In this document: one piece after another, positions 14,324 through 31,984 of the stretch | How positions within the stretch are numbered: the first letter of the stretch is position 1 | Layout of the letters: each line of letters starts with the position of its first letter | Source of the DNA: Phycisphaerae bacterium | Lineage (GTDB): Bacteria; Planctomycetota; Phycisphaerae; Sedimentisphaerales; Anaerohalosphaeraceae | Length of the DNA stretch: 46,823 nucleotides | Reading direction: 5' to 3' | Assembly: GCA_018433925.1 (NCBI GenBank) | Contig: JAHDQI010000070.1 | Span: 1-46,823 of the forward strand | Notes under the pieces: model-generated | Databases searched by the model: none | Told to the model about the DNA's origin: nothing | Seen by the model: the letters and a program-made list of their open reading frames with translations, nothing else | Translations under genes and position numbers: made by a program

Positions 14324-15880
14324 TTATTCATAGAAGTGCGTCGATTCGGTCTCGATCACATCCCGATCAAGCTGATCGGCATTCATCGTCACACCAAACC
14401 GAACATCGCCTTCCTTAACCGCTTTGACAACCACACGCCAGGTGGCCTTGGCCCCGGCGTTGAGCGAAGGCAGCGACGCAAACGTGATCTTGTTGCCGGC
14501 CGCGCTTCCGCGAGTGGCTCCGTCGGCGGAAATATACTGCATGGTATCTTCAATGGTGCAGGTAATCCTGATATTCGTCGCCGTTGCCGTTCCCTGGTTG
14601 GTGGCCACGATTACGTAGGTCTCGTTCTGACCAACTTCGATGGGATCCGCCAGGTCGATAACCTCCAGCAGCAGGGCCGGGATTCCGCGAATCTCGGTCG
14701 AAGCGGACTTGGAGACATCCTGGGCACAAATGGCCTTGGCTGTGGCCGTATTGCTGATCTTGCCGTGCGAGGTCGGCACATAGGAAACGGTAAACTGCCG
14801 GGTCGCACCGGCGGCCAGGTCGCCGACGTTCCAGGTAATCATGCCGCCGGACTGAACTCCGCCGCCGCTGACCTGAATCTGCTCAACCCCGGAGGGAATC
14901 GTATCGGTGACAACCGTGCTTTTGGCCACGCCGTCGCCCTTGTTGGCCACGGTAATGACATACTCCACCCGGCGTCCGCCGTATTCCCATTCCCGGCCGG
15001 TGGTCTTATCAATGGTCAGAATCGGCTGGGTGACCTTGGTCCGGGTGACGTTGGATTCGGCCTTGAGGTTGCCGTCTGCGACGGCCATGGCTTTGTTATC
15101 AAAGGTGCCTGTCTTGGTAGCCTTGACCTGAACCGTCTTGGTGGCCGAACGGCCTGCGGGCAGCGAATCGATCTTCATCGAGATCTGCGAGGCCCCGTCC
15201 ATGGTCGTCAGGCCGCTTGGCAGGGTATCGGTAATCTGCACATTCCGCGCTTCGCCGGATCCCTTGTTGGAGACCGTAAAGGTCAGCGTGATCGGATCGC
15301 AGATCGAGACTTCGGCGGTGGCGGTTTTGGCCAGTTCCAGCGCCGGCTGAACGACTTGAGTCTTGGCACAGGCGGGAATGATATAGGTTGCGTCCGCACA
15401 GGTCATGATCCAGCCCTCGCTGGTGGCCTGTCCCTTGACCACCATCGTTTTGGATTCCTTTGGATCCATGCTGTCCAGCTGCCAGGTCAAAATCTGCCCG
15501 GCCAGCTTTCCTTCCGGACTGGAGCTGATATACTTGAAGTTCTGCCCCAGCCGCTCGGTGATGTTGACGGCATAGAGGGTTTTGTCCGTCAGATTGGTCG
15601 CCTTGATCGTGTATTCAAACGGCGCATTCATCGTGACGGTCTTCGGCAGAATCTTCTCGATTTTGAGGGTACCGCAACAGTCATTATTGTACAGTTGTGA
15701 GGCCATGTAATAGGCCGACGGTTCCGCGGCCGGTGCCGGGGCCGGCTTGGGGGCCGGAGCCGGGGCGGGAGCGGGCCTGGGGGCCGGTTCGGCCTTGGCT
15801 GCCGGTTCGGTCTGAAGACAGGCACAGCCGCCGAGTGTAAGCATTACCGCCAACAATAAAATGGACAAAAGTTTTCTCAT
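14324..15880 (-). CDS. OmcB-like DUF11-repeat lipoprotein
   Basis: A 518-residue lipoprotein: lipobox LGGC (Cys19), a spacer of Pro/Ala repeats (about 25-55), then four or five beta-sandwich DUF11 repeats with the usual TDTLPSGL-type signature. Order and details resemble the chlamydial cysteine-rich outer membrane protein OmcB: a first unit on 'CCGTLKIEKILPKTV', a unit with VSNKGSGEARNVQITDTLP, one with VEYVITVANKGDG, and an end in TESTHFYE where I recall OmcB ending in TENTHIY. It has far fewer cysteines than OmcB, so a disulfide-linked coat is less likely. A TAGGAG ribosome binding site and a terminator frame the gene, which is transcribed alone. It is probably an abundant structural lipoprotein of the outer membrane or cell wall. 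Confidence 0.85.
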   Translation of the reverse strand: MRKLLSILLLAVMLTLGGCACLQTEPAAKAEPAPRPAPAPAPAPKPAPAPAAEPSAYYMASQLYNNDCCGTLKIEKILPKTVTMNAPFEYTIKATNLTDKTLYAVNITERLGQNFKYISSSPEGKLAGQILTWQLDSMDPKESKTMVVKGQATSEGWIMTCADATYIIPACAKTQVVQPALELAKTATAEVSICDPITLTFTVSNKGSGEARNVQITDTLPSGLTTMDGASQISMKIDSLPAGRSATKTVQVKATKTGTFDNKAMAVADGNLKAESNVTRTKVTQPILTIDKTTGREWEYGGRRVEYVITVANKGDGVAKSTVVTDTIPSGVEQIQVSGGGVQSGGMITWNVGDLAAGATRQFTVSYVPTSHGKISNTATAKAICAQDVSKSASTEIRGIPALLLEVIDLADPIEVGQNETYVIVATNQGTATATNIRITCTIEDTMQYISADGATRGSAAGNKITFASLPSLNAGAKATWRVVVKAVKEGDVRFGVTMNADQLDRDVIETESTHFYE

Positions 15881-17359: not shown

Positions 17360-18736
17360 ATGATGTCGAAACACAGGATTCCAATCCGTTTTGTTCTTTG
17401 GATCGTCTGGGTGTTGTGTATGGGGCCGGCGGGCTGCGGCACCGGAGTCCGGCCGGATGCTGACCCGTTCCCCCTGAAGGTATCCGGCATTCGGAAATTA
17501 GCCGATGGATTCCGATTTACCGAAGGCCCGGCCGCGGACGGGGAAGGGAACATCTACTTTACGGACATTCCCAATAACCGGATTCTCAGGTGGTCCCCGG
17601 ACGGACAGATCCGCACGTTTCTGGAAAATTCCGGGGGCGCCAACGGGCTGCTGTTTGACAAGGACGGCGACCTGATCGCCTGCGCGGGAGGGATCGGCAA
17701 GCTCGTATCGATTGACCCGACGGGAAAGATCACGATCCTGGCCGATACCTACGAGGGAAAGCCCTTCAACAGTCCCAATGATCTGTGGATCGACGGGAAG
17801 GGAGGCATTTATTTTACCGATCCCCGATACGGCCACCGGGAGACCCTGCCGCAGGACGGGGAGCACGTCTATTATCTTTCGCCCAATCGCAAAAAGCTGA
17901 TCCGGGTGATTGATGACCTGGTCCGTCCCAACGGACTCGTCGGCACGCCGGACGGCAAACGGCTCTATGTTGGCGACCATGGAGCGAACAAAACCTACGT
18001 TTACTCAATCCGGCGGGATGGCACGCTGACCGGCAAAACCCTCTTCGCCGAGCAGGGATCGGATGGGATGACTCTTGATGCGGCAGGAAATCTTTACCTG
18101 ACGGCCGACGCGGTGGCGGTGTATGCCCCTTCCGGAGAAAAGACGCAAACGATCGAGATTCCTGAAATGCCCTCCAATGTCTGTTTTGGGAAAGGGGGCC
18201 GGACGCTTTATGTCACAGCTCGACAATCCCTGTATGCCGTCGATCTGAAAAGCAACATTTATTCCTTTACGCTGAAGGATATTGACGGGTGGCCGGTTGG
18301 ACTGTCCCGGTACGAGGGCAAGGTTCTTCTGGCGGTCAATGTGGCCAGCGAGTGCGCCTTTACGGGGCAGTATGCAAACCTGGAGCGGCTTTACCGGAAA
18401 TACAAGGATCGGGGATTGGTTGTGCTGGGGTTTCCGGCCAATAACTTCGGCAGCCAGGAACCGGGGTCCAACGCCGAAATTAAAGAGTTCACCGTCCGCC
18501 GGTTCGGGATTACGTTTCCTTTGTTTGCAAAGATCTCCGTCAAGGGAGAGGATATGCATCCATTGTACCGGTCCCTGACCAGCCCGGAAGAAAACGGCGA
18601 GTTCGGCGGGCCCATCCCCTGGAACTTCAACAAATTCCTGATCGACAAGGATGGAAATACGATCGCGCGTTTTCCCTCCGAGGTCGATCCCTTAGACCCC
18701 CAGATCATCGAGGCCGTGGAGGCGGCATTGCGATAA
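17360..18736 (+). CDS. Fusion of SMP-30/gluconolactonase propeller and glutathione peroxidase
   Basis: A 458-residue exported protein with two enzymes in one chain. A signal sequence (about 8-26) ends at a cysteine, possibly a lipoprotein site. Residues 45-296 form a six-bladed SMP-30/gluconolactonase propeller; the expected metal ligands are present (Glu55 in TEGPA, Asn140 in SPND, Asn191 in RPNGL, Asp235 in SDGM). Residues 299-458 form a complete glutathione peroxidase domain with the catalytic tetrad Cys332 (ASECAFTGQY), Gln366, Trp421 and Asn422. The resolving cysteine of thioredoxin-linked GPx (in EIKEFxCxRF) is replaced by Val379, so it may be a one-Cys enzyme. No stop or frameshift separates the parts. 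The stop codon directly abuts that of fucU. Confidence 0.9.
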   Translation: MMSKHRIPIRFVLWIVWVLCMGPAGCGTGVRPDADPFPLKVSGIRKLADGFRFTEGPAADGEGNIYFTDIPNNRILRWSPDGQIRTFLENSGGANGLLFDKDGDLIACAGGIGKLVSIDPTGKITILADTYEGKPFNSPNDLWIDGKGGIYFTDPRYGHRETLPQDGEHVYYLSPNRKKLIRVIDDLVRPNGLVGTPDGKRLYVGDHGANKTYVYSIRRDGTLTGKTLFAEQGSDGMTLDAAGNLYLTADAVAVYAPSGEKTQTIEIPEMPSNVCFGKGGRTLYVTARQSLYAVDLKSNIYSFTLKDIDGWPVGLSRYEGKVLLAVNVASECAFTGQYANLERLYRKYKDRGLVVLGFPANNFGSQEPGSNAEIKEFTVRRFGITFPLFAKISVKGEDMHPLYRSLTSPEENGEFGGPIPWNFNKFLIDKDGNTIARFPSEVDPLDPQIIEAVEAALR

Positions 18737-21138: not shown

Positions 21139-21191
21139 TCTTAGACCCCCATTGAATTCCAATTACACAACTTTATTTGGGAGGTTGGATT

Positions 21192-21890
21192 ATGAAACAC
21201 TCGCAACGTTCTCTATTGTTTTCCCTGGGTGTATGCATCCTTGCTCTGGCTCTGCCGGTAATGGCCGATCCGTATCCGGCCGATGAGATCATTCCTCTGC
21301 CGGTGCCGCCGAATCCGGAGTACACAAACACCGCCTCCGGCACCCTTGTTTTCGGCTCGGAAAATCCGGCTTATACCGTCATGGTGGAAAATGAACTGAT
21401 CCTGCAAAACTGGAAGGAGTGGATCATTCAATACACGATCACTCCGCTAAACCCGGAGGATTGGTGGTTTGACCCTCATGTAGACTACGGTTTCCGGGTG
21501 AATCCGGGCGAGGAGCCGCCGTTGTTTGATCGCTGCCAGATGGAGGCCATCAATCCGACTACCGGTCAGATGCAGTTGTATAGCGCCTGGTGGGATACCC
21601 TGGTGACAGGATCCGGCAGCGCCCCTCCCACGACGACAGTGTGGACGGCGGCCGGTTTTCCATTCGCTAACCAGAGCGCCGGTTTATTCGTGATGTCAAG
21701 TCCGCTGGGTCCGATCGATTACCTGATCGATACGTATCCGTTTGACTTCAATCCGGAATGGGTCAGTCTGGAATTTGCCGGAAGGAATGTACAGATTGAC
21801 TACGTTTTCTACGACTGGTGTGTGCCCGAGCCGACAACGGTCGGCCTGATGCTGCTGGGCAGCGCGATTATAATCCGACGGCGAAGGTAA
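21192..21890 (+). CDS. PEP-CTERM sorting domain protein
   Basis: A 232-residue secreted protein. It has a signal peptide (about 1-24, ending VMA), a central beta-rich domain with many Trp, Tyr and Pro residues and no recognised fold, and a C-terminal sorting signal: VPEPTTVGLM (about 211-220), a short hydrophobic helix and a final RRRR. PEP-CTERM proteins are recognised by exosortase and placed on the cell surface or in exopolysaccharide. No exosortase gene lies in the window. The start at 21192 has a strong GGGAGG ribosome binding site; a frame-continuing ATG at 21177 lies upstream of it. Confidence 0.88.
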   Translation: MKHSQRSLLFSLGVCILALALPVMADPYPADEIIPLPVPPNPEYTNTASGTLVFGSENPAYTVMVENELILQNWKEWIIQYTITPLNPEDWWFDPHVDYGFRVNPGEEPPLFDRCQMEAINPTTGQMQLYSAWWDTLVTGSGSAPPTTTVWTAAGFPFANQSAGLFVMSSPLGPIDYLIDTYPFDFNPEWVSLEFAGRNVQIDYVFYDWCVPEPTTVGLMLLGSAIIIRRRR

Positions 21891-21923: not shown

Positions 21924-22331
21924 TTAGGGCATTTGCCGACCCCGGCCGCGACGGCGATGTCGCCCGGGGCGGGGGTCTGCGCCCTGACCCGGACAGGGAC
22001 CGCGGCCCATCGGGGGCATGGGTCCATACGTCGGCGGCGGGGTCATCTCCACCGCCCCGCCCTCGATAACGAGGGCCTTGCCTCCGGTGAGGGCATCGGC
22101 GATTTTTTTGCGGGCCGAGTCAATGATTCGGCCAAATGTCTGCCGGGATATGTTCATGCGCTCGGCCGCCTGCTCCTGGTAGAGCCCTTCGCCGTCGGCC
22201 AGGCGAACGGCCTCCCATTCATCTTCGGTCAGGATCACCTGCTGCAGCGCCGAACGCGGCACGCCCTGGGGCTTATAGACCCTGCAGCACGGCACTCCGC
22301 CGATGCGTCTGAAATTCTGCGGCCGAGGCAT
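21924..22331 (-). CDS. DUF134 helix-turn-helix protein, last gene of the ORP operon
   Basis: A 135-residue member of the DUF134 (UPF0251) family, predicted DNA-binding proteins found beside ORP/NifX-type proteins in anaerobes. The N-terminus MPRPQNFRRIGGVPCC and the following YKPQGVP are family marks; a sigma-70 region-4-like helix-turn-helix (about 35-80) contains EWEAVRLADGEGLYQEQAA and ISRQTFGRIIDSAR. The C-terminal 35 residues are rich in Gly, Pro, Arg and Cys and resemble the Gly-rich tails of DUF5320 partners. It follows mrpORP by 8 bases. The likely role is control of this operon, perhaps through the palindrome at 26945-26968; that link is inference. Confidence 0.9.
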   Translation of the reverse strand: MPRPQNFRRIGGVPCCRVYKPQGVPRSALQQVILTEDEWEAVRLADGEGLYQEQAAERMNISRQTFGRIIDSARKKIADALTGGKALVIEGGAVEMTPPPTYGPMPPMGRGPCPGQGADPRPGRHRRRGRGRQMP

Positions 22332-22339
22332 GTAAACTC

Positions 22340-23491
22340 CTAATGATCACAGATATTCTGTCCGCATTCGAGTCGGCCGGCCAGGTACCCCTCGACCAGT
22401 TCCTGCGGCGATTGATCGGGAGCGCCGACAATGACCTCGATCTTCTTTTCCCGAAACAGCATCTGGGCGCGCTGTCCCATGCCGCCGGCGATGACCGTTT
22501 GTACCTCCATCCCAGCCAGCCATTGCGGCAGCACACCCGGCTCGTGAGCCGGGGGCGTCAGCATCTGAACTCCTGTCGCCTTTTTGGTTTCCGGGTCGAC
22601 CTCGACAATCGCAAACTGCCGGCAATGTCCGAAATGGGCGGACAACCGGCCGTCGTTCGTGGGCACTGCAAATTTCATCGGTTTACTCCCTGTCTGATTA
22701 GATGAATACGGTTTTGGTTTCTGAACAATTTCCTGAAAACATCCGGCCAGCGCCTGGGCCGTGGGATGCTCCGGGCCGGCCTCTACGATCGGCCTGCCTA
22801 TCTCGCCGGTCCGGGCCAGCTCCGGGTCCATCGGAACGGCTCCGAGAATCGGCACCCCCAGCTCTTCGGCGGCGATCTCACAGGCCCCGCGGCCAAAGAC
22901 ATCCACCTTTTTTCCGCAGTGGGGGCAGATCAGTCCGCTCATGTTTTCGATCATGCCGAAGAGGGGAATTTCCAACTGCCGGCAGAATGAAATGCATTTG
23001 CGGACATCCAGCAGGGCCAGTTCCTGCGGGGTGGTGACCAGCACAGCGCCATCGACTTTCTGCAAAAGCTGGGCGGTTGACAAGACCTCATCGCCGGTTC
23101 CCGGCGGACAATCGACCACCAGATAGTCCAGGTCTCCCCAGCCAACGCCACTGATGCATTGTTCAAGGAAGCCGTGCTTGGCCGGACCTCGCCAGATCAC
23201 CGGGGTGTTGCGGTCTTCGAGCATAAACCCGATGCTCATGACCTTCAGATTCGGCGTGTATTCACACGGCCGGATTGCCCCTTCGAGCTGAAAGAGTTTT
23301 TGCTCTTCCATCTTCAGCAGCTTCGGGATGCTCGGCCCATGCAGATCCACATCCAGCAGGCCGGTTGATTTTCCCTGAAGAGAAAGCCAGACGGCCAGGT
23401 TGACCGCCACGGTACTTTTTCCCACGCCGCCTTTTCCGCTCATGACCAGAATCGTTTTGGCGATTTGATTTTCGTTTTTCTCTTTTTTCAT
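22340..23491 (-). CDS. MrpORP: Mrp/NBP35 Fe-S carrier ATPase fused to an ORP/NifX-like domain
   Basis: A 383-residue fusion. Residues 10-255 are a Mrp/ApbC/NBP35 P-loop ATPase that carries and transfers Fe-S clusters: deviant Walker A SGKGGVGKST (18-27), DVDLHGPS (47-54), VVDCPPGTGD (125-134) and the cluster-binding CPHC motif (Cys189, Cys192). After a Ser/Pro-rich linker, residues 272-383 form a dinitrogenase Fe-Mo cofactor/ORP domain (MKFAVPTNDGRLSAHFGHC), which in the orange protein holds a Mo-Cu sulfide cluster. The same fusion, MrpORP, is part of the ORP complex of Desulfovibrio. The lone ORP protein and the ATPases of the complex lie in the same operon. Confidence 0.95.
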   Translation of the reverse strand: MKKEKNENQIAKTILVMSGKGGVGKSTVAVNLAVWLSLQGKSTGLLDVDLHGPSIPKLLKMEEQKLFQLEGAIRPCEYTPNLKVMSIGFMLEDRNTPVIWRGPAKHGFLEQCISGVGWGDLDYLVVDCPPGTGDEVLSTAQLLQKVDGAVLVTTPQELALLDVRKCISFCRQLEIPLFGMIENMSGLICPHCGKKVDVFGRGACEIAAEELGVPILGAVPMDPELARTGEIGRPIVEAGPEHPTAQALAGCFQEIVQKPKPYSSNQTGSKPMKFAVPTNDGRLSAHFGHCRQFAIVEVDPETKKATGVQMLTPPAHEPGVLPQWLAGMEVQTVIAGGMGQRAQMLFREKKIEVIVGAPDQSPQELVEGYLAGRLECGQNICDH

Positions 23492-23522
23492 CGAGCCGTT
23501 TTTTCCATTGCGTTGTTTCGAA

Positions 23523-24398
23523 TCAAACCGTTTCCTGAATCGTTTCCCAGAGGCGGCGGATGGAGCGGGCCGCCGGGCCGTCGGGGTCGTATTCGATCAC
23601 ATTTTGGGCCTGAATCTGCGCCCGGGTTATCGCCGTATCATACGGAATTTTCGCCAGCACGGACAGGTTTTTTTTCGCGGCTTCCTGTTCTATTTCAGCG
23701 GTCATTTCCGGATTGAGATCGGCCTTGTTGACACAAATCGCCGCGGCGATTTTAAAATGATCGGTCAATTCAAGGATGCGCCGCAGGTCATGGCGTCCGG
23801 ATTGGGTCGGTTCGGTCACCACCAGGACGAAATCGGCCCCGGTCAGCGAAGCGATAACCGGGCAGCCGATGCCCGGACTGCCGTCGGCAAGGATCCACTC
23901 CCTCTGTTCGGCCCGGGCGAGTTGCCGGGCCTCTTTGCGAATGAGGGCCACCAGCTTGCCGCTGTTTTCCTGGGCGATACCGAGCTCGGCGTGCACCATC
24001 GGGCCAAACCGGGTTTGCGAAAGAAACCAGCGGCCGTTGACGGAATCGACAAAATCAATCGCCCCGGCCGGGCAGAACTCCACGCAGACCTTGCACCCCT
24101 CGCAGAAAGAACTGTTCACCCGAAACGCTTTTTTGCCTTCGACCGGTTGAATCGCCCCGAACCGGCACAGCGAGAAGCATCGCCCGCAGCCCCGGCATTG
24201 GAGCGGTTGTATAACGGCCTGCCTGCCGCCGACAAAATCCTGCTCCTGAAGAACCGTCGGAGAGGTCACGAGGTGCAGATCGGCGGCATCCACATCGCAG
24301 TCCGCCAGCACGCTGTTTTGGGCCAGCCCGGCCAGGGCCGCCGTGATGCTGGTCTTGCCGGTGCCGCCTTTTCCGCTGATGATGACAATCTCTTTCAC
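23523..24398 (-). CDS. MinD-superfamily ATPase with inserted ferredoxin domain (copy 1)
   Basis: A 291-residue P-loop ATPase: Walker A SGKGGTGKTS (8-17) and DCDVDAADLH (33-42), then an inserted two-cluster ferredoxin domain with Cys68/71/74/78 and Cys99/102/105/109, then the rest of the MinD fold with LADGSPGIGCPV and VTEPTQSGRHDL. Such proteins pair with the one encoded next to it and act with ORP proteins (in Desulfovibrio both ATPases are in the ORP gene cluster). The likely task is ATP-driven assembly or transfer of metal-sulfur clusters. Its ATG overlaps the stop of copy 2 by 4 bases. Confidence 0.93.
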   Translation of the reverse strand: MKEIVIISGKGGTGKTSITAALAGLAQNSVLADCDVDAADLHLVTSPTVLQEQDFVGGRQAVIQPLQCRGCGRCFSLCRFGAIQPVEGKKAFRVNSSFCEGCKVCVEFCPAGAIDFVDSVNGRWFLSQTRFGPMVHAELGIAQENSGKLVALIRKEARQLARAEQREWILADGSPGIGCPVIASLTGADFVLVVTEPTQSGRHDLRRILELTDHFKIAAAICVNKADLNPEMTAEIEQEAAKKNLSVLAKIPYDTAITRAQIQAQNVIEYDPDGPAARSIRRLWETIQETV

Positions 24399-25243
24399 AG
24401 GCCGATGCCCTCCGCAAGCTGATCAAATCGCGATTGATATTCCGGCAATACATTCAGGATCATCCGCCCGTCGGAATACGCGCGGGCAATGCGGCGATCG
24501 TCCGGCAGCCGAAGCAGAATGTCGATGCCTTCCCGGCCGCAATAGACCTCAACCCGGTCATCGCCGCTGTCGGCGCGGTTGACAACCACGCCAAAAGGCA
24601 GGCCAAGCTGACGGACCATGCCGACAGCCAGCTTGAGATCATGCAGCCCGAAGGGCGTCGGCTCGGTCACCAGCAGCACAAAATCGGTATCCCGCACGGC
24701 CGCGATGACCGGACAGGATGTGCCGGGCGGGGCATCGAGAATTTTGATGGCTTCCGGATTCATTTTTGCCCGGGTTTGTTCGATGACGGTCGGGGTGCGG
24801 ACACTGCCGATCTTCAGCAACCCCTGCACGCACGCGATTTCGCCGGCGCGACCCTGCTCAATCAGACCGATTTCGAGTTGCTTTTCTGTGATGGCACCGG
24901 CCGGACATATCCGCATGCACCCCCCGCAGGAATGGCAAAGCTGCTCGAAGGTCAGGACATTGCCGCCGACGGAAACGATCGCTCCATACTGGCAGAGGGC
25001 TCCGCATTTTCCGCAGCCGGTACACGCCTGGGGGTCCACCTGCGGCACACCGGCATACACCGGCATTCGGCTGTCGAAGTCCGGCTTGAGGAAAATCGCC
25101 CCGTTGGGCTCTTCCACGTCGCAGTCAAGGTACTGCACCGCCCTGCCGTTTACGGACAGGGCCAGCGCCAGGTTGACCGCGATTGTGGTTTTTCCCGTGC
25201 CGCCCTTGCCGCTGGCGACGGCGATGACCGGATGGGTTTTCAT
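24395..25243 (-). CDS. MinD-superfamily ATPase with inserted ferredoxin domain (copy 2)
   Basis: A 282-residue paralogue of its downstream neighbour: Walker A SGKGGTGKTT (11-20), DCDVEEPN (40-47), two [4Fe-4S] motifs (Cys74/77/80/84 and Cys103/106/109/113), then LDAPPGTSCPVI and VTEPTPFGLHDL. Copies 1 and 2 differ across most of their length, so this is an old duplication and they probably form a heterodimer. Both ends overlap neighbours by 4 bases (ATGA), showing tight translational coupling within the ORP operon. Confidence 0.93.
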   Translation of the reverse strand: MKTHPVIAVASGKGGTGKTTIAVNLALALSVNGRAVQYLDCDVEEPNGAIFLKPDFDSRMPVYAGVPQVDPQACTGCGKCGALCQYGAIVSVGGNVLTFEQLCHSCGGCMRICPAGAITEKQLEIGLIEQGRAGEIACVQGLLKIGSVRTPTVIEQTRAKMNPEAIKILDAPPGTSCPVIAAVRDTDFVLLVTEPTPFGLHDLKLAVGMVRQLGLPFGVVVNRADSGDDRVEVYCGREGIDILLRLPDDRRIARAYSDGRMILNVLPEYQSRFDQLAEGIGL

Positions 25244-30491: not shown

Positions 30492-31781
30492 TTATTCTTT
30501 TGTCGGGTCCGTCACCCGGCCCATAAACAGAACGCTTCCGGTTTCCTTATCCCGTATCAGGAACAGAAACGGCCGGTCGGCTCGAAACATCGGCGGCGGC
30601 TGGCGCACGGCTGTCAGCCTCCTTACGATTCCCGTCGCCGCGGCCGCCTCGGTCCCTTCCTCATCAACCGCCACAAAGGCCTTATGAATTACATTCGAGA
30701 TAAACAGATCCCGGCTGCCGGTCATGCCCGAAAAGTCCGCCGCACTGCCAAACGCCTGGGGCATTCCCATCGCCGCAAGAACCCGGCCCAGCTCGCATTG
30801 ATAAGTCATCGTAAACTTCGGCAGAAACACATCCACTTCCGTGGTTTTCAGATCGCTCGTCCATGCTTTCAGTGTCTCGGCGGACAGGTCTTCCTCAAGA
30901 TGCCTGAGAAAATGCGATTCCGGCAGCAGCACGACCATGCTTACGTCATCGCCCTTGTACGGCAATTCGAGCACCTGAATTTTTATTTCCTGTGCATACC
31001 GCCGACTGACTGATTCGCCGTACTTGTAATCGGCCCGGCGATGCATCAGCGGCGCCGTGACCGTTTTCTCCGGTGAACAATAAAAGTGTTCCTGACGAGT
31101 CATGGCCTTGTCAAATGGATCGGCCCAGTCGCCCTTGAAATAAATCGCGTTGGTCAGCACCAGCCGCGTCATGGCATCCAGCATCCCCGGCGGAATCAGA
31201 TCCTTGATCCGGTCACGGGTTTTTTGCTCCACCCAGCCGTTGATCTGTTTGCGAACCCTCTCGGCATGGCTGCGAAAATCCACCCGTTCCAGTTTGGCCG
31301 AGTAATGCCGCCGGTTGACTTCGAGAAAGGCATCGAGAAACGCATGCTCCTTCTGCATCCACAGGGCATTGGCTACGGCCAATTCATAATCGCCCTTTTG
31401 GCCCTGTTCGTTGAGTCTTTGTTCAAGCCGGCCAAAGGCCGCGTGAAAGGTTTCCTGCGGCTCAAAAAACCGCAGTGTCTCCCGCATTTGAACCTCTGTA
31501 GGGCCTCGCGCCCCCGCAACCACCATCGCCAGCGCCGTCGAAATGCTGTAGGGGGAGAAAAACACATTCTCGGCCGGTCCCTCCGAATCCGGCCGGCCGG
31601 CCAGATGATGATACAGATCCAGTGCAAATTCCGTATTCCCCGCCGTCACCCGGCTGACCTCTTCCGGCTTCGGCGGCTCGACAGCCCGTTCCTCGGCAGG
31701 CAACGGCTTCCCCAATGCGAATACCCACCCCGAAAGTCCAATTAAAAGCAGATATCCTATTTTTATCGTCCCTGGCTTCAT
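30492..31781 (-). CDS. Serpin (serine protease inhibitor)
   Basis: A 429-residue serpin. Residues 1-25 form a signal peptide or anchor. The conserved breach and shutter segments are visible: NVFFSPYSISTALAMVVAGARG, TRLVLTNAIYFKGDW and VHKAFVAVDEEGTEAAAATG in outline. The hinge EEGTEAAAAT is the canonical pattern of inhibitory serpins; counting 17 residues from its first Glu as in antitrypsin places P1 at or near the Thr of RRLTAV, with Arg at P4 and P3. The end ADRPFLFLIRD...LFMGRVTDP is also standard. The start at 31781 has AAGGAG; an ATG at 31820 has no ribosome binding site. It heads an operon of exported proteins, so it probably guards envelope or secreted proteins from foreign or own proteases. 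Confidence 0.95.
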   Translation of the reverse strand: MKPGTIKIGYLLLIGLSGWVFALGKPLPAEERAVEPPKPEEVSRVTAGNTEFALDLYHHLAGRPDSEGPAENVFFSPYSISTALAMVVAGARGPTEVQMRETLRFFEPQETFHAAFGRLEQRLNEQGQKGDYELAVANALWMQKEHAFLDAFLEVNRRHYSAKLERVDFRSHAERVRKQINGWVEQKTRDRIKDLIPPGMLDAMTRLVLTNAIYFKGDWADPFDKAMTRQEHFYCSPEKTVTAPLMHRRADYKYGESVSRRYAQEIKIQVLELPYKGDDVSMVVLLPESHFLRHLEEDLSAETLKAWTSDLKTTEVDVFLPKFTMTYQCELGRVLAAMGMPQAFGSAADFSGMTGSRDLFISNVIHKAFVAVDEEGTEAAAATGIVRRLTAVRQPPPMFRADRPFLFLIRDKETGSVLFMGRVTDPTKE

Positions 31782-31984
31782 CGCGCGGCTCCTTACCTGA
31801 TTTCCGGCTATGTTTCCCATCCCATTCCTTGTTTAGACACCATCTTGCCTTATCCGGTTGACGAAAAAAACAAAAAATCTTTTCCTTCTTTGCATGAACA
31901 TCATAACTTATTATAAAAAAACGATTTACCTTCATTATAATTCCCGCCCGCAGTCCCAATTTGACGCATTATCCAATTTTTCTC

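Follow-up and report, generated by a model that had tools for sequence, protein, structure and literature searches.

The nearest described precedent for the design reported here is DrSOD of Deinococcus radiodurans, in which a Cu/Zn-SOD is fused to an SGL propeller lactonase; with it, the idea of combining an antioxidant enzyme with an SGL propeller was already published for Cu/Zn-SOD (PMC12362111). The metal ligands of DrSOD are Glu200, Asn290, Asn339 and Asp381, its lactonase activity on 2-coumaranone is weak, and its deletion produced no stress phenotype (PMC12362111). For glutathione peroxidases (GPx), the catalytic tetrad has been defined as Cys-Gln-Trp-Asn, and GPX7 has been described as a CysGPx without a resolving cysteine that is reduced by protein disulphide isomerase (PDI) in the secretory compartment (PMC9925728). 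By its description, NHLRC2 (PMC6107167) also carries a thioredoxin-fold domain and a beta-propeller in one chain, although with the domain order reversed relative to the fusion and with an NHL instead of an SGL propeller.

The window analysed here is a stretch of 46,823 nt from the genome of a Planctomycetota bacterium. An ORF at 17360..18736 (+), with an ATG start and no internal stop, encodes a 458 aa protein consisting of a leader, an SGL beta-propeller and a GPx domain. The SGL (SMP-30/gluconolactonase) six-bladed propeller (residues 53–287; 17516..18220, +) was matched by Pfam with an E value of 7.5e-43 over profile positions 1–244 of 246, scoring 147.3 bits against a curated cut-off of 26.3. 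The GPx domain (residues 298–458; 18251..18733, +) was identified by Pfam, phmmer and Foldseek; GSHPx (PF00255) was matched at residues 300–406 over profile positions 1–107 of 108 (E 5.7e-38; 129.3 bits against a curated cut-off of 27), and the phmmer comparison of the domain with solved GPx gave 1.4e-41. With both Pfam domains near complete and far over their cut-offs, the one-chain SGL-GPx fusion proposed in the original prediction is real. The joint between the halves is short in the structure model, where the last propeller strand ends at about residue 297 and the first GPx strand starts at residue 304. A genome-wide search recovered one SGL and one full GPx match in the window genome, both inside the fusion chain. 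An RmuC gene is located upstream on the same strand, and a convergent RbsD/FucU gene downstream.

Like DrSOD, the window protein unites an antioxidant enzyme and an SGL six-bladed propeller in one chain and has the same Glu/Asn/Asn/Asp pattern. It differs in that the Cu/Zn-SOD of DrSOD is N-terminal (by residue numbering) whereas the GPx is C-terminal here, and the two proteins concern different reactive oxygen species and belong to different lineages; no Cu/Zn-SOD domain was found in the window protein by Pfam scan. What the SGL-GPx fusion adds is a new pairing; the two enzymes themselves are ordinary, and joined they do not make a new kind of machine. It adds a second, independent case of an antioxidant enzyme with a metal-dependent lactonase propeller to the Deinococcus SOD-lactonase, and two such cases suggest a common need, namely the clearing of reactive oxygen where lactones arise or open. 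The original prediction put the combination forward as one not known to be described, and no SGL-GPx report was found in the literature searched, although an InterPro architecture table or a subscription paper could contain one; the fusion is apparently undescribed.

A whole-genome search identified SGL and GPx in one chain in 7 of the 161 genomes of the order, distributed over two families. Recurrence in several species (seven here), which the original prediction had named as a check, is thereby supported. Five belong to the window's own family (G000, which is the window genome, G007, G010, G011 and G012) and two to another (G146 and G147, both single-contig genomes); the six other fusions were 55–67% identical to the window protein. 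The possibility of an assembly or annotation artefact, which might be raised by the distribution of the window genome over 441 contigs, is negligible: six further full-length fusions were recovered, two of them in single-contig genomes, which rules out the frameshift that had been named as a possible source of the fusion. The GC3 of the window gene was also even along its length, at 0.71 for the leader, 0.68 for SGL and 0.72 for GPx.

No further SGL-GPx fusion was found among 397 genomes of the class (E values up to 1e-125) or 392 genomes of the phylum (E values up to 1e-115), at a search depth that would miss a distant fusion. A GPx search across the phylum yielded 20 long GPx frames for examination, none with SGL, and several of these looked like open-frame run-on in GC-rich DNA. 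A pattern scan of contigs from 84,980 species, which reaches close relatives only, returned three full-length fusions with the same sequences as those of G007, G011 and G012, and none outside Planctomycetota. Within the samples searched, the fusion is lineage-restricted. A candidate decayed fusion in G018 (L086), with a stop inside the match, was rejected: it is an ordinary stand-alone SGL, and the forward frames read contained no GPx motif. No conserved neighbourhood was seen around the six other fusions on the basis of ORF positions and protein starts; as neighbouring genes vary between genomes, the context gives no substrate.

The catalytic residues of both domains had been predicted to be retained, and all eight were kept as named, aligning either with XC5397 (3dr2), a gluconolactonase, or with GPx of known structure, and were invariant in 7/7 fusions. 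In the propeller, the predicted metal ligands of the central tunnel are Glu55 (17522..17524, +), Asn140 (17777..17779, +), Asn191 (17930..17932, +) and Asp235 (18062..18064, +; predicted metal ligand or general base), each aligned in 3e5z and 3dr2. In the GPx half, the tetrad comprises the peroxidatic Cys332 (18353..18355, +), Gln366 (18455..18457, +) and Trp421-Asn422 (18620..18625, +). DrSOD is a warning that retention of the ligands need not mean that the propeller is a gluconolactonase.

Selection was estimated for G146 and G147, the sole fusion pair close enough for dN/dS. By the Nei-Gojobori method, dN and dS were 0.095 and 0.77 for SGL and 0.072 and 0.95 for GPx, and the resulting dN/dS of about 0.1 in each indicates purifying selection on both halves in this pair. 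The structure model of the window protein, built from 71 sequences, had a mean pLDDT of 90.8 with both domains well formed (80.7 in an earlier model built from 7 sequences). In the 7-sequence model the propeller matched the structure of XC5397 from Xanthomonas campestris with a Z-score of 36.6 and an rmsd of 1.7 over 256 residues, the ligands being aligned; XC5397 is nevertheless a stand-alone protein without GPx, at 29% identity. The GPx half matched poplar GPx5 in Foldseek with a TM-score of 0.94 by target length and an rmsd of 1.5.

The first 45 residues (17360..17494, +) form a lipoprotein-like export leader resembling the leaders of stand-alone lipoprotein GPx genes in G011 and G013, with a match of 43% over residues 2–47 (E 1.8e-4); residues 1–33 had pLDDT below 50 in the structure model. 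The hydrophobic, lipoprotein-like character of this leader supports the exported chain that had been proposed. Inspected by eye, it ends in GPAGC, whereas the leaders of related stand-alone GPx carry the canonical LLGC or FLGC. The proline occupies position −3 of the lipobox, which is unusual and makes lipidation of the window protein uncertain. Several of the other fusions bear other leader types.

Three genes of the window's family that encode stand-alone lipoprotein GPx (L109 in G011, L098 in G013 and L164 in G007) are alike to the window gene in leader and GPx, with up to 78% GPx identity, but lack SGL. The GPx tree placed the domain of the window protein as sister to these three, with support of 100/99, and apart from the other fusions. 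Forcing the seven fusion GPx domains into one clade cost 37 log-likelihood units (p-AU 0.005), and a single origin of all fusion GPx domains was rejected. At the level of sequence phylogeny, a separate ancestry of the window GPx is thus demonstrated. In the SGL tree, for which only a quick tree was built, the seven fusion SGLs grouped with an SH-aLRT of 94 and with three non-GPx rows inside the group. Silent divergence between the window gene and the stand-alone gene of G011 was 0.74 in the leader (only 48 codons) and 0.84 in GPx, and between the window SGL and the SGL of the G011 fusion it was 2.95, which is saturated. The window gene accordingly looks like a mosaic in which leader and GPx match the stand-alone lipoprotein and the propeller matches the other fusions. 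It probably arose in one of two ways: a fusion-type SGL may have been spliced into a gene for a stand-alone lipoprotein GPx, behind its leader and ahead of its GPx, or an older fusion may have had these two parts replaced by recombination with a stand-alone paralogue, the order of events in each case being a reconstruction.

The same sublineage accounts for the resolving cysteine, which the original prediction had described as lost. The window Thr378 (18491..18493, +) aligns with the cysteine of yeast HYR1, after the Phe377 position, and with a cysteine in 6/6 other fusions; the adjacent Val379 aligns with the poplar GPx5 cysteine. On the presence of a resolving cysteine in the helix after QEPG, which marks 2-Cys (thioredoxin-dependent) GPx, the window domain with Thr378-Val379 falls outside that class, whereas the six other fusions fall within it. 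The cysteine is indeed absent from the window protein, but as a trait of the architecture the loss did not hold, since six of the seven fusions retain the residue; it is ruled out as a hallmark of the fusion. The three stand-alone sisters in G011, G013 and G007 also have threonine at this position, indicating that loss of the cysteine characterizes a single GPx sublineage, composed, by alignment, of the window GPx and these three lipoprotein genes. The loss is probably older than the window fusion. A more distant stand-alone GPx (L136) also lacks the resolving cysteine. G007 and G011 each carry a fusion plus a stand-alone GPx gene, and these, together with fusions that either keep or lack the resolving cysteine, provide ready comparison pairs.

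Both halves were also found in other combinations. GPx was fused to ThuA in L143 (by Pfam) and in L149 and L208 (by sequence likeness), and Pfam-confirmed fusions in Planctomycetota joined it to a SOUL heme-binding domain (L146), a GDSL hydrolase (L203) and a methyltransferase (L158). The ThuA, SOUL and GDSL proteins resemble the window protein in being exported with a C-terminal GPx, and differ in the N-terminal partner. SGL was combined with cupredoxin (L067), PEBP (L073) and GH16 (L099), and some SGL/GPx combinations came from other phyla. Judged by domain matches, SGL and GPx are promiscuous modules in the phylum, and as both combine widely, SGL-GPx is one of many combinations. Across several exported proteins of Planctomycetota, the exported GPx seems to serve as a portable module.

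Further observations were made among these relatives. L159 was also listed among Planctomycetota GPx fusions with other domains. A fusion of SGL with a metallo-beta-lactamase fold, 527–567 aa in length, was frequent in the same order and commoner than SGL-GPx (L116, L117, L130, L133, L023, L021, L025, L026 and L031); Pfam confirmed this arrangement in L116 and L027. A redoxin domain considered for L027 had no Pfam support, the C-terminus being the metallo-beta-lactamase fold. In-frame TGA codons were present in the GPx genes of eight Planctomycetota genomes (G644, G576, G693, G591, G573, G691, G723 and G664), making these candidate selenocysteine GPx.

Our preferred reading, to which we assign a probability of roughly 0.6, is that the fusion is a bifunctional exported enzyme with predicted lactonase and peroxidase sites side by side and with GPx as a portable module. 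Activities, metal, reductant and location of the window protein are predicted as follows. The protein would probably be lipid-anchored, on the outward side of a membrane. Its propeller may coordinate a single metal ion, by analogy Ca2+, with Glu55, Asn140, Asn191 and Asp235 and would open a lactone, probably an aldonolactone, by hydrolysis, while the GPx domain would reduce H2O2 or organic hydroperoxides by Cys332 with Gln366, Trp421 and Asn422, the two sites acting without a shared channel. In most fusions the resolving cysteine would form an internal disulphide to be opened by a thioredoxin-like protein. With threonine in its place in the window protein, the Cys332 sulphenate would need an outside reductant, most likely an exported thiol protein fed by a DsbD-like membrane reductase, and the reduction of GPX7 by PDI may serve as a working model. 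The window genome contains a 628 aa DsbD-like frame that combines DsbD_TM with a thioredoxin part. The search for glutathione synthesis covered GSH synthetase (PF02955) and GCS2 (PF04107), neither of which was found there; glutathione made through E. coli-type GshA (PF04262) or GshF, or imported, may yet be present.

The original prediction suggested that the enzyme may act on oxidised sugars or may link the oxidation of sugars to the removal of peroxide. A coupling of putative lactone and peroxide chemistry is plausible, and in its strictest form the fusion would be a dedicated two-product clean-up: an aldonolactone and H2O2 would arise together from extracellular sugar oxidases, or from dehydrogenases with oxygen, and the fusion would remove both near the cell. 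The joint retention of both residue sets in 7/7 fusions is consistent with such a role, as is the presence of the single-copy SGL and GPx of the window genome in one chain. However, Pfam annotation placed no sugar oxidase gene next to the window fusion, the six other fusions had no common neighbour (compared without a domain scan), and GPx is joined to ThuA, SOUL, GDSL and methyltransferase partners as well, so we regard this dedicated role as unlikely. Because GPx and SGL each join many other domains, a portable module fits as well as dedicated coupling. More doubtful still is a reading in which SGL merely binds a polymer or surface ligand, or acts as a scaffold, and so places an active GPx on the cell surface. 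None of the seven fusions departs from the four metal ligands, and stand-alone SGL relatives are very common in the order, suggesting that the domain is useful alone; the finding that the same propeller is attached to many partners with no relation to one another, namely a metallo-beta-lactamase fold, cupredoxin, PEBP and GH16, would nevertheless be as expected for a targeting domain.

In the window protein, GPx might also act as a thiol oxidase or disulphide-forming partner that passes peroxide oxidation to client proteins, in the manner proposed for GPX7, rather than as an antioxidant. Animal GPX7 and other 1-Cys GPx resemble the window domain in keeping the Cys tetrad, lacking the resolving cysteine and occupying an exported compartment, and differ in having no propeller. 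The loss of the resolving cysteine in the window protein and its three sister genes fits this possibility, as does the partnership with PDI described for GPX7 of the secretory compartment (PMC9925728); the GPX7 equivalog model TIGR02540 was matched at 111.6 bits, below its cut-off of 207.3. Since the six other fusions keep the cysteine, such a function could apply to one sublineage at most, and we hold it to be improbable. The same low standing is given to a composite in which a dedicated extracellular remover of aldonolactone and H2O2 was assembled at least twice out of the same two types of component and one sublineage became a 1-Cys, GPX7-like enzyme oxidizing exported thiol proteins.

Several other loci in the window were recorded. 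A full-length serpin was encoded at 30492–31820 (−), with an E value of 2.5e-126; serpins, a family of protease inhibitors, are distributed patchily among bacteria. At 21924–25243 (−), genes for DUF134, an Mrp/NUBPL ATPase with a NifX-like domain and a MinD-type ATPase with ferredoxin domains were clustered. The lipoprotein-like product of 14324–15880 (−) contains four DUF11 repeats and weakly matches the chlamydial OMP6 outer membrane protein. A short exported protein at 21177–21890 (+), with no Pfam family match, had a C-terminus like a PEP-CTERM sorting signal (VPEPTTVGLMLLGSAIIIRRRR).
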